A stretch of DNA of 26,340 bases from a virus. The translations under genes were made by a program, and so were the position numbers. The stretch is taken from positions 1 to 26,340 of IMG/VR virus record IMGVR_UViG_3300025133_000527; one strand, given 5' to 3'. Shown piece after piece: positions 3,231 to 26,340 of the stretch (position 1 is its first letter; every line of letters starts with the position of its first letter). The notes under the pieces are model-generated. The model was given only the letters and a program-made list of their open reading frames with translations, ran no database searches and had not been told where the DNA came from.

Positions 3231-3724
3231 TAGTCATTAAGTCCTATCATGTTTTCCGATTGCCCCATATTAGCTAGTTTGGAGATAATCATCTGCTTTA
3301 TAAGAAAGCTCTCTGATACCTCACTAGGTGGAGCAGGTTGTTGAATATTTAGTAGAGGTTCTCTCTCGGCTTGTGCAGAGTCTAGGTCTAGAAGCTGCTC
3401 ACTTAAACTTTCATTTTCTCTTTCTAAAACAATTTTGTCGGCTTCAAGTTCTTCAACCTTGGCTTCTAAAGCTTGAATTTCAGCAATAGCGGCACTTTGT
3501 AAGTAGCCTCCTTTGGTTGCCTCTCGTATCACTGCTAAATACTGCCCCTCTGTAAGTAAAGTTACAGCGGTATGATTATCAGGAATATCTTCACTATCTT
3601 CTATTGTATTTAGGGATTCATCCCATGAATCTAAAACTCTCCACGTACCTGATGCATCTCTTTTGGCTACATACTGAAGGTCGTATGTTTTGCTTAGTCT
3701 GTCCACTATATCTTGATCACTCAC
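3230..3724 (-). CDS. Coiled-coil hypothetical protein upstream of portal (164 aa)
   Basis: Translation starts at GTG with GGAGG six bases upstream, and the stop overlaps the portal start (TAATG), so the two are probably translationally coupled. Residues 1-75 look globular. Residues about 78-120 form a convincing coiled coil of Leu/Ile and Glu heptads (ALEAKVEELEADKIVLEREN). A Pro-rich link near residue 128 and a short helical tail follow. No enzyme motif is visible. Coiled coil plus position suggests a portal-associated assembly factor or a regulator, but the family is unknown. It is the first gene after the ribonucleotide reductase and has a promoter-like sequence directly upstream. Confidence 0.7.
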   Translation of the reverse strand: MSDQDIVDRLSKTYDLQYVAKRDASGTWRVLDSWDESLNTIEDSEDIPDNHTAVTLLTEGQYLAVIREATKGGYLQSAAIAEIQALEAKVEELEADKIVLERENESLSEQLLDLDSAQAEREPLLNIQQPAPPSEVSESFLIKQMIISKLANMGQSENMIGLND

Positions 3725-3752: not shown

Positions 3753-3783
3753 ATTATACTGCTAATGCGATGATTTTACGCAA
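3753..3783 (-). promoter_or_regulatory. Possible sigma-70-type promoter for the portal operon
   Basis: In the short gap after the reductase gene the minus strand carries a perfect TATAAT (3758-3753). TTGCGT, which shares TTG with the -35 consensus, lies 19 bases upstream (3783-3778). The -35 overlaps the end of the reductase gene and the -10 lies in the intergenic gap. The spacer is longer than the ideal 17 bases. A start here would serve the coiled-coil gene, portal and the genes beyond it. Confidence 0.4.
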
Positions 3784-5746
3784 TATGACACTTAGACCAC
3801 CCACAACTTTTGCAAGTAGAGCATCCTGATTCTTCTACAATGAAGGGAGAACTACAGCACTCTTCTTCTGTGATAGATAGTCCTAACCACTTTAAAGAAG
3901 AAGGGGAATCAGTGTATAAAGATTCAAGTTTGAATTCATTATCAACTGATGAAGCCATTGAAGGTATCATAGATAATTGGGATAAATCAAAACTTTCTGT
4001 TTTAGTTTCCTCTTTTACATTAGACACTAGAACCTCCTTGTCACGAGAACCTGACCTGTACACTGTAATCCCTTTACACCCAGTTCTCCATGCTTCTATA
4101 TAAGCGGTTGATATATCTTCAACTGTAGCACTATTGGGGAAATTAATTGTCTTAGATATACCAGAGTCACAATATTTTTGGAAAGCTGATTGCATGCCTA
4201 CGTGTCCTTCAGCACCTATATCGGCAGATGTTACAAAAACATCTTTAGCCCACTGTGGAACATCATCTCTGTCCTGAATAGAACCACCATCAGCCACGTA
4301 CCCCATTAAATCTTCCGAGTAAAAGCCTGAATCTTTAGCAGTATTTTTAAAATATTTGTTTGCATAAAAGAATTCCTGTCCTTCAAGAACATTTTGTTTC
4401 CGCCAAACTAGCGCAAAAGTAGGCTCTATTCCACTAGATGTGTCCGCAAGCATAGAAATAGTTCCTGTGGGAGCCACTGTAAGTCGGCAAGCGTTACGAT
4501 ACTTAGGTCCACCTTCCTTGGCATAATCACTGCGATCCCAAGCAGGGAAAACCCCACGTTCTTCAGCTAATTCTATAGAGGTATCATCTGATGTGGTTTG
4601 TATGAATTCCATGACAGTAGCACCCACTTCCCTGCCAATCTTCGTGTCATATCCTATTTTCAGTTTAATGAGTAAATCAGCAAAACCCATGACCCCTAAA
4701 CCAATCTTCCTAGTTGATTTAGTCATCTTCTCTATTTCTGGGGTAGCGTAATAATTAGCGTCAATAACATTGTCAAGGAATCTAGTGGATAATTTAATTA
4801 CAGAGGCTAAATCTTCCCAGTCTACTGAGTCTTTCCAGTTTGTGCTTTCTGAAAAATTATGAAATTCAGCTAAATTGACAGACCCTAAATTGCAGGATTC
4901 ATTGCCCAACAAAGGCTGCTCCCCGCAAGGGTTAGTTGCTATCATGTCTCCATATTGTTCTTTGACTTTATTGTCCTGATTTATGCGGTCTAGGAAAACC
5001 ATTCCCGGCTCTCCGTTTTTCCATGCCCCTTTAGTAATTGTATCAAAGACCATCCGAGCATCATGCTCGCCTACAACTTCATGGGTGTTTGGGTCAATCA
5101 AAGGGTAATGAACTCCCGCTGCAACGGCTTGCATAAAGGAATTGTCCACCCCAACAGAAATATTAAAGTTATGAATGTCGCCTTCCACTGACTTGCAGGA
5201 AATGAACTCAAGGATATCGGGGTGATGAACATCCAGAATAGCCATATTCGCCCCGTCTCTCTTACCCCCTTGTGTAATCATTGATGATACACGACTCAAA
5301 GTTTTTAATACTTCTATCGGTCCGCAAGCCTTCCCATGTGTAGAGGCAATGTTGGTTCCTCTTGGACGCAACTTAGACAAGGCAAACCCTGTGCCACCAC
5401 CGAACTTCTGAACCATAGCTGCGTCAGTTGCACCTTTCATAATTCCTTCCATAGTGTCTTCCAGAGGAAGTACAAAACAGGCTGAAAGGGTTCCTTGATG
5501 AGTCCCTGCGTTCATCATAGTCGGGGAGTTGGGTATAAATTTTAGACCATCCATCATCTCAAAAAATTGATTGGTGATTTTCGTAACTTCATGGTCTGGT
5601 TTGTCGTACAGTTGTTCTATCAGGGCTACGGTTTTTGCAACACGTTTGAACATATCAGTGGAATCCTCAACTGTCTCCCCTGCCTCGTCTTTTAAGTAAT
5701 ATCGTTTTTTCGCAATCGTCTCGGCTTGGGGGGTAAGATCAGCCAT
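3776..5746 (-). CDS. nrdJ: Class II (adenosylcobalamin-dependent) ribonucleoside-diphosphate or -triphosphate reductase
   Basis: This enzyme reduces ribonucleotides to deoxyribonucleotides for phage DNA synthesis, using a radical made from vitamin B12. The catalytic signature NPCGEQPL gives N272, C274 (thiyl radical) and E276. C90 (TLSAC) and C285 (ESCNLGS) match the redox pair. APTGTISMLADTSSGIEP (about 425-442) and PNSATVEDI (537-545) are also family motifs. The carboxy terminus is a cysteine cluster, C642, C645, C648 and C653 (CSTCKSCGWSKCHIA), typical of B12-dependent NrdJ and used for re-reduction. No small radical subunit gene is seen nearby, as expected for class II. It starts at ATG after GGAGG. 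Its place between large terminase and portal, rather than with replication genes, is unusual. No intein or frameshift was seen. Confidence 0.96.
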   Translation of the reverse strand: MADLTPQAETIAKKRYYLKDEAGETVEDSTDMFKRVAKTVALIEQLYDKPDHEVTKITNQFFEMMDGLKFIPNSPTMMNAGTHQGTLSACFVLPLEDTMEGIMKGATDAAMVQKFGGGTGFALSKLRPRGTNIASTHGKACGPIEVLKTLSRVSSMITQGGKRDGANMAILDVHHPDILEFISCKSVEGDIHNFNISVGVDNSFMQAVAAGVHYPLIDPNTHEVVGEHDARMVFDTITKGAWKNGEPGMVFLDRINQDNKVKEQYGDMIATNPCGEQPLLGNESCNLGSVNLAEFHNFSESTNWKDSVDWEDLASVIKLSTRFLDNVIDANYYATPEIEKMTKSTRKIGLGVMGFADLLIKLKIGYDTKIGREVGATVMEFIQTTSDDTSIELAEERGVFPAWDRSDYAKEGGPKYRNACRLTVAPTGTISMLADTSSGIEPTFALVWRKQNVLEGQEFFYANKYFKNTAKDSGFYSEDLMGYVADGGSIQDRDDVPQWAKDVFVTSADIGAEGHVGMQSAFQKYCDSGISKTINFPNSATVEDISTAYIEAWRTGCKGITVYRSGSRDKEVLVSNVKEETKTESFDLSQLSMIPSMASSVDNEFKLESLYTDSPSSLKWLGLSITEEECCSSPFIVEESGCSTCKSCGWSKCHIA

Positions 5747-17704: not shown

Positions 17705-18116
17705 TCAGAGAGTTCTCCAATCGCATAATTAGCTCATTTTGAGTAGTGGCGTCATCTGCGGTAGGGAACCATTTGTTCTCTATGTGCATAAGACGCCTCC
17801 AAGTAAGCTTATCATCAGGAGTACCTTTTGTCAAAACTAAGTAATACAGGTCAGGGCGTTGGACATTAGGTAGATAGTTCCAGTACCCCTTCATTATATA
17901 AGTGGCTTTAATTTGCCGCTCACTGTCCCGTAACCCGACATACAGCCCGCACAGGGTCTTGTATAGTCCTTCCCCGTCAACCACTTTTTTGATGGCACTT
18001 AGTTCGTTACCAATAAAACCATGCGGGGTATACTCGTCATCGAATTTCTCTTCGTACCACCCTTTATACAGGTCAAAAATATCTTTAGATGTAAGGGTTT
18101 TATTCGAGGGAGCCAT
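17628..18116 (-). CDS. Hypothetical replication-region protein (162 aa)
   Basis: No family is recognised. The sequence is aromatic and helical: IFDLYKGWYEEKFDDEYTP (13-31), GYWNYLPNVQRPDLYYLV (77-94) and LTWRRLMHIENKWFP (104-118). The end is a basic, flexible tail (SPKKKAARKKRPDTTK). There is no nucleotide-binding motif. It overlaps the sigma-factor end by 17 bases and the next gene by 77 bases. Its position before helicase and primase suggests a replisome assembly role such as a helicase loader or an SSB-binding adaptor, but no motif supports this. The long overlap may force translation coupling with the next gene. Confidence 0.7.
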   Translation of the reverse strand: MAPSNKTLTSKDIFDLYKGWYEEKFDDEYTPHGFIGNELSAIKKVVDGEGLYKTLCGLYVGLRDSERQIKATYIMKGYWNYLPNVQRPDLYYLVLTKGTPDDKLTWRRLMHIENKWFPTADDATTQNELIMRLENSLNDKTKLANLSPKKKAARKKRPDTTK

Positions 18117-18615
18117 AATAATTATTAAACTTTTCTTTTAGGGCTCTTTTGATCTTATACAAAGATACCCCGTTAATGCCTTTACCAATTTCAGTGTTAG
18201 AGAATCCGGTAAGACGTTTAATAAGATAGTCGGATTCTTCATCAGAGAGGTCTAATACTTCTAGATCAATCTTATCAAGCACTGCTTCAATATCATCAGT
18301 CTCATCTGCTACGTCATACCCTGAAGACTCCCAGTCACCTGAGTCAGAATTTTCAGAGGCTCCTAAACTTGCCATGTATCTAGGTCTTCTAGCACTTTTG
18401 GTATGTAATGTGCGTATAGTATTTACCATACTTGTATGAAGGTAGGTGTGGAAACTTGTTTGTTTTGATACATCAAATTTTTCAGCAGCTTTTATGATTA
18501 CTATTCTAAGTTCTTGGGCTAAATCGTCTCTATCAAAGCCGGGGATATACGTATTGCTTACAAAACGTTGTACTTTAGGCTCCCACTGCTTGATTAATTC
18601 GTCGTTTACTATCAA
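18100..18615 (-). CDS. Sigma-70-family-like transcription factor
   Basis: The protein should redirect host RNA polymerase to phage promoters, probably late or middle ones. Residues about 10-70 match sigma region 2 (VQRFVSNTYIPGFDRDDLAQELRIVI, then KFDVSKQTSFHTYLHTSMVNTIR), with an acidic linker (90-115). Residues 121-165 match region 4 (LDLSDEESDYLIKRLTGFSNTEIGKG then a recognition helix VSLYKIKRALKEKF). It lacks regions 1 and 3, like small phage and ECF-type sigma factors. The start is TTG 18615 with GAGG seven bases upstream; it overlaps the preceding HTH/zinc gene by 41 bases. Placement between tail and replication genes is notable, and a direct match to T4 gp55 is not shown. Confidence 0.8.
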   Translation of the reverse strand: MIVNDELIKQWEPKVQRFVSNTYIPGFDRDDLAQELRIVIIKAAEKFDVSKQTSFHTYLHTSMVNTIRTLHTKSARRPRYMASLGASENSDSGDWESSGYDVADETDDIEAVLDKIDLEVLDLSDEESDYLIKRLTGFSNTEIGKGINGVSLYKIKRALKEKFNNYYGSLE

Positions 18616-23362: not shown

Positions 23363-24796
23363 TTAATAATTAGCCAAGTTGCCAGCCATAGCCATGTCCA
23401 TACTAGAACTGCGGGAGCCTAAACTATCGACTCCCATCATTAGGTTGAATGATGAGAAACTTTGTTCAGCAATTTGGAAACGATCAAATTGAGGAAGGTC
23501 AATCTGTTTCCCGAATGGTAGATCAATTTGGGTTGGTATCAAATCATATACCCAATTCAGAAGACCATTTATTCCTTTAATAATCGTATTTACCAACCCC
23601 TCAGCCAAATTACGTACACCATCATTAATAGTCCGTTTTATTCCTTCAGTGAGAATCATAGAAAGGCTTATCCTAAACAAATTAATAGGTCCCATAAAAA
23701 GCAGGATTATAGCATTTATAATTTTACTAAAGAGACTGCCGCCACCTAAAGAAAACATCTCCCTAAAAACATCTCCGATTTCTGAGAATAATTTGCCTAC
23801 AAAGTCGTAAACGCTCTGTTTTACGTCCTCTGGAACCAATAGCTCCCACAAGATCATTCCTGCTCCTATCACTATCGCTGCAACGAGTCCGGGCACTACC
23901 CCTGTAGCCAAGATTCCTATAATAATGGGTACAGCGAAAGCCATCATATTCATTATGAGTTTTGTAATTGCCTTTCCAGTATCTCCTTCTTTAAAGGCAG
24001 CCCAAACTTCCGCTATTGCAAGAGGAATTCCTACAATCATAGCCATTGTACCTAGACCTTTTATCCCAGCCGCTGCTATTTTACCTATTTTAGCTAAAAA
24101 TGCAAATGAAAGCCCTTTCGTTAAACCGCTGAAAAAGGCCTTTGCAGCACCTATACCTTTATTCCCTGTTTTAAAGGCTGCTTTGACATCATCAACTACG
24201 TCTGACTGTTCTATGGGCTCAAACAGGTCTGCAAATTTCCAATTCATAGGATTCCATCCCAAGCCTTTGAATTTCAATGCAAATTCGCTACCTACCATTG
24301 CCCCTAAACCACTTATGCTCATTATCCTGAAACCCTGCTCTACTAGTTCGGGCACACCAAAGTCGTTTGGTTTGCCAAAGTTCACTAGGTCAGTTAATTT
24401 GTACACAGCGTCTTTTAGCCACTGAACAGCCGTTTCAGACCAAGAGCCAATTTTAGGAATCCACCCAGATATAATGCCCACTAGTTTAAACAAATAAGGT
24501 GCTAGTGGGGCTAATACGACATCAACAAGCATACCAATAAGCTGGAAAACAGAACCTAAGAACCCCGTAAAAATCTGTGACTGTTTCAACATAGCTGCAA
24601 GGCTGATGTCAATTCCTATAAGTTTCTTTAAAGATTTATCTTTGTTCTTTTTTTCTTCTTCTTTGTCCTTTTTAGCACTATCACCTGAGGGTGAACTTGT
24701 CCCTCCCGAGGAACCTCTTCCAGAGGCGACGCCCATCTGAGTGCTAGCAGAACCCTCTATCTTTATCAATAGAGTTTTGTCCATTCCCATTACCAT
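23363..24796 (-). CDS. Tape measure protein
   Basis: The tape measure sets tail length and is often injected. The 477-residue protein begins with a Ser/Gly-rich segment and a Lys/Glu-rich coil (KKDKEEEKKNKDKS, 42-55). It then has many hydrophobic helices (75-110, 250-265, 285-318, 355-378), the membrane-active segments typical of tape measures, and a helical remainder to the end. At usual helix rise this length suits a short tail, roughly 70 nm. No muralytic motif is visible. Its ATG follows AGGAGG directly, and the stop of the frameshifted chaperone extension sits right at the start (TAAATG), the classic order for G/GT then tape measure. Confidence 0.88.
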   Translation of the reverse strand: MVMGMDKTLLIKIEGSASTQMGVASGRGSSGGTSSPSGDSAKKDKEEEKKNKDKSLKKLIGIDISLAAMLKQSQIFTGFLGSVFQLIGMLVDVVLAPLAPYLFKLVGIISGWIPKIGSWSETAVQWLKDAVYKLTDLVNFGKPNDFGVPELVEQGFRIMSISGLGAMVGSEFALKFKGLGWNPMNWKFADLFEPIEQSDVVDDVKAAFKTGNKGIGAAKAFFSGLTKGLSFAFLAKIGKIAAAGIKGLGTMAMIVGIPLAIAEVWAAFKEGDTGKAITKLIMNMMAFAVPIIIGILATGVVPGLVAAIVIGAGMILWELLVPEDVKQSVYDFVGKLFSEIGDVFREMFSLGGGSLFSKIINAIILLFMGPINLFRISLSMILTEGIKRTINDGVRNLAEGLVNTIIKGINGLLNWVYDLIPTQIDLPFGKQIDLPQFDRFQIAEQSFSSFNLMMGVDSLGSRSSSMDMAMAGNLANY

Positions 24797-25389
24797 TTAT
24801 CGCCTCCTTTCACTATCTTTTTGGTCTTTGTCCGCTAATGCTCCTAAAGCGGAAAGTAAATATGTTAGTTCAGACTCTGTTAATCCCAAGATATCTTTAT
24901 AAGACATTCCCATTTTCAGTAGAGAAGCTACTAATGTCCAGTGGGAATACAACACATTTTCCGAGTCCGAAACAGGTATCCCCGTTAGAAATCTTAGGAT
25001 TCTTTTTTTATGACCTCTATTTCTGTCATTTCATTAGTAAATGCGTTAGGAACCAGTTGTTCTAACGCCGCTCCTAGTGTACCATCAATCGAATCTAAAA
25101 ACTCGTCTGTTACAGAAGATACCCCGTTCACAAACCATGGGGCATCTACAATAATTTTCTTTAAAACCTCTCGTAAGTACAAGCCTGAGTTAAGTTCTGG
25201 TTCCCCTGACTTGGGATCAAATGTCATACACTTTGTCGTAATATCACTTTTTTCAAACCATGGGAGTTGCCTTGTGGTTATTGTGAACTTATCTTCGTTT
25301 ATAGAGACTTCCATTTCTGTGGTTGCCCCTTTAGTTTGGTACTTACTTATGTCAAAAGGTTGAGCCGCCGCTATTTTCTTATTTGCCAT
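24797..25389 (-). CDS. Frameshifted tail assembly chaperone (G-T fusion, 197 aa)
   Basis: The fusion probably forms by -1 frameshifting at A AAA AAA (25009-25003). Residues 1-129 are shared with the short product; after two Lys codons the frame continues RILRFLTGIPVSDS and runs 68 residues without a stop to TAA (24799-24797), adjacent to the tape-measure ATG. The extension (WTLVASLLKMGMSYKDIL) is helical and charged at the end (DKDQKDSERRR). Lambda gpG/gpGT-like chaperones wrap the tape measure at this exact gene position. The open alternate frame, heptamer and neighbour order agree. A separate 38-residue gene from an internal ATG is less likely because it has no SD. Confidence 0.82.
24994..25389 (-). 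CDS. Tail assembly chaperone, unshifted form (131 aa)
   Basis: Without frameshifting the product ends six bases past the slip site (KKES). It is the G-like component: about 131 residues, mixed strands and helices (TEMEVSINEDKFTITTRQLPWFE at 23-45, then TLGAALEQLVPNAFTNEMTEIEV). It is found between tube and tape measure, as in lambda-like and many other tails. It starts at ATG 25389 with GGAG about 13 bases upstream. The short form is normally more abundant than the fusion. No catalytic motif is expected or seen. Confidence 0.85.
   Translation of the reverse strand: MANKKIAAAQPFDISKYQTKGATTEMEVSINEDKFTITTRQLPWFEKSDITTKCMTFDPKSGEPELNSGLYLREVLKKIIVDAPWFVNGVSSVTDEFLDSIDGTLGAALEQLVPNAFTNEMTEIEVIKKES
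25003..25009 (-). promoter_or_regulatory. Slippery heptamer for -1 ribosomal frameshift
   Basis: The minus strand reads A AAA AAA in the zero frame (third base of ATA, then AAA AAA), followed by GAA TCC TAA. It is a classic X XXY YYZ site near the end of the tail chaperone gene. A weak SD-like GAGG lies a few bases upstream. No strong downstream stem was recognised by eye. Confidence 0.82.
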
Positions 25390-25425: not shown

Positions 25426-26340
25426 TTAAGGATATACTGGAACGCCATCTGTAATGACGATTTTCATATTCCTTGCTACACAATCTATGGATGTCTGTAA
25501 TGTGGGCTCTTCTGTGATGTCGTGAGGTGCTGACCGTAAGAATACTCCTCCTTGAGCTAGTCCGGTCGCTGCTGTTGCATCTCCCGGTAAGTCTATTACC
25601 ATCGTATCATTTGTACCCCTAGTAAACTCTAGTCTCACATTGAAGCCTTGAGACCCACTACCATAATTTCCCTCTAACAGTAATTGTTTGTACAGTTCAA
25701 GGGCTCCACCTATATCATTTCCTGTGGTTGCCTCTGAATCATTAAGTGACACGGTTGCAGAGAAAGTATATTCACGACGACCTTCACGCATTTCGTTAGG
25801 ACCACGCCTTCTTCCGTTTCCATGCCGGGAACTTACGTAATACCGTTGCTCTGTTGCATTTGAAACGCCTATGGAGAAATCTCTAATTCTTGCAAATTCC
25901 TTACGGTCAACTGCTGAGTCCGCTGGAGATGTAACTCCTGCCCCTCCAATATACACAGTTCCTTCTGAGAAGTAATATGGTTCAGTTGTGAGGAAATCAA
26001 TATCCGTGTCACTAATATCATCCATTATTGCATACCCGGGCATACCTGCACCAACCGAGTCCCCACTATATAAAGAAGTTCCTACAGTTTTCTGATCCTC
26101 TAAGTTATGGATAGTCCCCATGAAATTGACTGTATCCCATCCAACTGTTAGCATCCCACCTTCATCAGCACTAATAGTCATTGAGTCTACCATGCCGCCC
26201 AGTGAACGCCTAATGAATGCGTTTCCCTCATCAGAATCTAACATTCTAAGATGCCACGTCATTGTTGGGAGTAAGTTCGCTTCCGTAATAAAGTGTTTGA
26301 ATACATTAGTAGTAACATCATCGTCAAATGCAATTATATA
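25426..26340 (-). CDS. Probable major tail tube protein, 5' end outside the window
   Basis: The frame stays open to the last base: 304 residues are visible, and the ATG at 26262 is internal, since the 26 codons upstream continue in frame (TTNVFKHFITEANLLPTMTWHL). The sequence is rich in strands and Gly/Asp/Thr, with a patterned basic patch (GNGRRRGPNEMREGRREY, near the middle) and YTFSATVSLNDS and VRLEFTRG strands. Tube proteins are typically single beta-rich subunits, and this lies directly before the chaperone and tape-measure genes, the standard order. No sheath gene is visible in the window, so a contractile tail cannot be excluded. Name assigned by position and composition. Confidence 0.7.
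   Translation of the reverse strand, partial: YIIAFDDDVTTNVFKHFITEANLLPTMTWHLRMLDSDEGNAFIRRSLGGMVDSMTISADEGGMLTVGWDTVNFMGTIHNLEDQKTVGTSLYSGDSVGAGMPGYAIMDDISDTDIDFLTTEPYYFSEGTVYIGGAGVTSPADSAVDRKEFARIRDFSIGVSNATEQRYYVSSRHGNGRRRGPNEMREGRREYTFSATVSLNDSEATTGNDIGGALELYKQLLLEGNYGSGSQGFNVRLEFTRGTNDTMVIDLPGDATAATGLAQGGVFLRSAPHDITEEPTLQTSIDCVARNMKIVITDGVPVYP

Follow-up and report, generated by a model that had tools for sequence, protein, structure and literature searches.

A tail assembly chaperone (TAC) gene that almost certainly uses programmed -1 ribosomal frameshifting of the lambda G/GT type was identified in a 26,340-nucleotide stretch of viral DNA (the whole of the stretch analysed, hereafter the window); the fusion itself is predicted. 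The virus is tailed and uncultured. A slippery site, overlapping reading frames, their conservation and coding selection on the extension can all be read from the DNA. Frameshifting had been proposed in an earlier note made from the letters alone, and the proposal is supported here by the position of the gene, purifying selection on the extension, a confident structural model of the extension and distant homology to the TACs of HVTV-1/HHTV-2.

The slippery site and the -1 frame extension

The features of the locus and of its surroundings are collected in Table 1. The codons around the slip read GTC AUA AAA AAA GAA UCC UAA, with the heptamer beginning at codon position 3 and lying two codons upstream of the stop, and the zero-frame protein ends in ...VIKKES. 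The earlier note had placed the end of the zero frame just past the heptamer, and its coordinates were confirmed to the base.

Table 1. Features of the chaperone locus and other genes in the window (positions in the window; all on the minus strand)
Feature	Position	Strand	Remarks
Tail tube / major tail protein gene, upstream	25426..26340	-	runs off the window; domain and PHROG matches
Zero-frame TAC (G-like)	24994..25389	-	131 aa; ATG at 25389, TAA 24996-24994
Slippery heptamer A AAA AAA, then G	25003..25009	-	X XXY YYZ phase
-1 frame extension (T-like)	24797..25003	-	68 codons, RILRF...SERRR, and TAA 24799-24797
Putative tape measure gene, next	23363..24796	-	477 aa; position and weak tape-measure/tail PHROG matches
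Sigma-70 region 2 protein gene	18100-18615	-	downstream of the tail genes
Ribonucleotide reductase large-chain gene	3776-5746	-	between portal-side genes and terminase

On the minus strand, no stop interrupts the -1 frame between 25030 and 24800, and its TAA abuts the ATG of the next gene at 24796; the open -1 frame described in the earlier note thus has the length and the end that were claimed. The zero-frame and -1 frame stops are separated by 197 bases, the figure given earlier for a stretch with no separate annotated gene, and this stretch is filled by the extension. Translation of the -1 frame in the window predicts a TAC fusion product of 197 aa. The annotation is corrected accordingly to one product of 131 aa and one of 197 aa, with no orphan gap.

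Elsewhere in the gene the -1 frame contains 13 stops in 121 codons; at that density, a run of 65 codons without a stop would arise by chance with a probability of ~6e-4. Thirty window ORFs with 8,609 codon junctions were examined, and the heptamer occurs in this phase nowhere else among them. A stop closes the +1 frame after 32 codons in the window, after 41 in the relative L001 and after 3-18 in the remaining IMG/VR relatives of the first set examined.

By sequence comparison, the extension is evolving as a protein in the -1 frame, under purifying selection. Between the window and L001, differences in this frame number 13, 3 and 23 at codon positions 1, 2 and 3 (dN 0.13, dS 0.69, with similar values in other pairs), and the zero frame across the same region contains nine stops. 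A tryptophan, a glycine and an alanine are invariant in the alignment of the extension from 19 loci. AlphaFold2 models the extension as four helices with a pLDDT of 92, and the zero-frame part with lower confidence (pLDDT 65). The extension matched no named family, fold searches with the models of both domains gave no significant match, and neither did profile searches of solved structures.

In the predicted mechanism, most ribosomes would terminate at the zero-frame stop and release the shorter protein. With tRNA-Lys in both the P and the A site on the heptamer, a minority of ribosomes would slip by -1, and in this phase both tRNAs could re-pair perfectly. Slipped ribosomes would yield the fusion, whose added 68-aa helical domain would end at the start of the next gene. 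That slipping occurs, and its efficiency, are points that we infer. As in lambda, the two products in a fixed ratio may assist in loading the tape measure with tail tube subunits; by the same analogy (PMC5009743), the tape measure would be bound by the portion that both products share, and the tail tube subunit by the extension.

A stimulatory RNA structure downstream of 25003, for which the earlier note had proposed a folding check, was not evident in the window, where folding did not go beyond chance (z -0.1 to -0.9, in a test covering pseudoknot-free folds). Across the family, folding of the 60 nt downstream of the slip was slightly stronger than that of shuffles, with a mean z of -0.95 compared with -0.14 in a control stretch (p 0.002, from rows that are not independent), and strong downstream hairpins are present in a few members (L020, L074 and L028). 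No Shine-Dalgarno-like stimulator was found at a constant place across the loci, only scattered matches. An A AAA AAG at codon 48 of the next gene (23363-24796) was considered as a second programmed site and rejected; it sits in a lysine-rich linker, and a stop follows only a few codons later in its -1 frame.

Conservation among relatives and competing explanations

IMG/VR pattern searches with the chaperone returned 41 distinct related contigs. Removal of near-duplicates left a non-redundant set of 38 loci, comprising the window and 37 relatives. Nineteen chaperones were aligned, and the relatives ranged from 86% down to ~35% identity to the window's protein. One candidate relative, L091, was discarded as a false match, and no relatives were found in genome_contigs.

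A AAA AAA G is present in phase in 37 of the 38 loci (the window and 36 relatives). The remaining locus, L038 (contig IMGVR_UViG_3300032006_000003, 82.8 kb), carries T TTA AAA G near 3360, at the same place and followed by a similar extension; by its sequence this is another canonical slippery heptamer, not a broken one. In every locus the -1 extension continues for 67-85 codons past the slip, and one to three zero-frame codons lie between the heptamer and the stop. In the first 20 loci examined, the end of the extension lies no more than ~26 nt from the next gene. Neither a stop in the -1 frame nor a broken heptamer, which the earlier note regarded as counting against frameshifting, was found among the 37 non-redundant relatives, and conservation of the extension in related phages, listed there as a check, was borne out, L038 differing in its heptamer but remaining slippery.

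The codon before the two lysines is ATA in 28 loci, GTA in 8, GCA in 1 and AAT in L038. Elsewhere in these genes, ATA accounts for 35% of Ile codons and AAA for 67% of Lys codons; despite this usage, the wobble A ahead of the lysine codons is retained across ATA, GTA and GCA. An intact heptamer would be expected in ~16% of independent lineages with an IKK peptide, a per-lineage figure from which no overall probability follows because the rows are related. The natural swap in L038 suggests that selection keeps slipperiness rather than the KK peptide. The analysis contributes a collection of loci from uncultured viruses in which the slippery site hardly varies.

Could the extension instead be a separate small gene, translated from a start of its own or by ribosomes re-initiating past the chaperone stop, so that no fusion is made? 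In 13 of the 38 loci, the zero-frame stop overlaps a -1 frame ATG two codons past the slip (TAATG), an arrangement that would suit such a gene but is absent from the window and from 24 other loci. The window has no start near the beginning of the extension; its first start-like codon, a GTG, comes 16 codons into the frame and lacks a ribosome binding site, and no start-like codon occurs for 47-73 codons in L011, L016 and L018. An independent start was rejected, neither a start nor a ribosome binding site being conserved, and a separate gene would leave the conserved slippery heptamer unexplained. We consider it highly improbable. Slippage by RNA polymerase on the A run, which would make a fusion mRNA without any slipping by ribosomes, deserves equally little credence. 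Seven A's do make a homopolymer, and RNA polymerase is known to slip on A runs longer than this, but here the run is just seven long in every locus except L038. This route is disfavoured because the phase for tandem tRNA re-pairing is kept in all loci, and in L038 it is kept even though T TTA AAA is no homopolymer. The split does fall at a homopolymer, a kind of sequence prone to error, as it would if a sequencing error or an indel in a pseudogene had broken a single ORF; against this, the 38 non-redundant loci, which come from many independent assemblies, all have the split at an identical site, and in L038 the heptamer has been replaced by another slippery one. An artefact or pseudogene of this kind is exceedingly improbable.

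Programmed ribosomal frameshifting remains the preferred reading, and the TAATG loci (L006, L007, L008, L014, L015, L017, L019, L023, L027, L057, L066, L074 and L083) add a possible variation on it. Since the overlap occurs in 13 of 38 loci, a free T domain could be made there in addition. That these loci, about a third of the group and not including the window, produce the T domain both fused and free by re-initiation is a tentative idea that we regard as unlikely; if true, one chaperone locus would give three products there.

Chaperone identity, gene neighbourhood and host

The window chaperone matches PHROG 32593/35486 (tail assembly chaperone) weakly (E 9e-4 to 2e-3), and 14 of the 19 aligned members match PHROG 25860 (best E 1.2e-6). 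In profile comparison, the G domain aligns with the HVTV-1/HHTV-2 TAC with an hhalign probability of 97 (pairwise E 1.2e-10).

The TAC gene is located between the genes for the tail tube and the putative tape measure, the latter assigned by position and weak PHROG matches. Identification of the upstream gene product as the tail tube protein is supported by sequence matches to Phage_tube_2 (E 2e-5, slightly below the Pfam cut-off), to PHROG 290 (E 4e-11) and, weakly, to the HCTV-5/HHTV-2 tail tube. The next gene has an AGGAGG ribosome binding site within the extension, and its product has no detectable sequence match to the HVTV-1 tape measure, gp131. This putative tape measure ORF is short, and ranges from ~308 to 614 aa among relatives (L006-L023); such variation would predict differing tail lengths within one virus group.

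The window also encodes a bacterial-type RecA, a DnaB-like helicase, a DnaG-like primase and a family A polymerase, besides the sigma-70 region 2 protein. A Sigma70_r2 or sigma-like gene was present in 12 of 12 related contigs tested, and the window's copy appears to be a phage sigma factor shared across the group. A search of genome_contigs gave no match to a host genome. From this gene content the host is likely bacterial, despite a tail cassette similar to those of haloarchaeal viruses.

Comparison with known frameshifting chaperones

The frameshift principle has been known since lambda and is familiar in many other tailed phages; the kind of system is already well known. The lambda heptamer is G GGA AAG and differs from the A AAA AAA of the window, whose extension, moreover, matches no named family. 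In other respects the locus is like lambda gpG/gpGT and the equivalent systems of long-tailed phages (PMC5009743): it lies before the presumed tape measure gene, the heptamer for the -1 shift is close to the 3' end, and the two products would share an N-terminus. The XkdN-like TACs of PF08890 (Phage_TAC_5; Bacillus PBSX/skin, YqbN) are a further point of likeness, with weak matches in 8 of 19 members, the best of them at E 0.0026, whereas the window protein itself has no PF08890 match and so does not reach the curated cut-off; YqbN (3klu) was also the top fold match of the G model, not significantly so.

Distant counterparts are the TACs of the haloarchaeal siphoviruses HVTV-1, HVTV-2 and HCTV-5 (e.g. 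HVTV1_129/130), which have a homologous G domain; reviews describe apparent -1 frameshifting in HVTV-1 and HCTV-1/2/5 (PMC5009743, PMC8211752). The HVTV-1 T domain is longer than that of the window and has no detectable similarity to it, and the HVTV-1 heptamer is G GGA AAG, in phase. The hosts of HVTV-1, HVTV-2 and HCTV-5 are archaeal, in contrast to the bacterial sigma-70 region 2 protein carried by the window and all the relatives tested. The gene order is nevertheless alike in HVTV-1/HCTV-5, running from the tail tube through the TAC (a joined CDS) to a tape measure of ~480 aa and a small gene.
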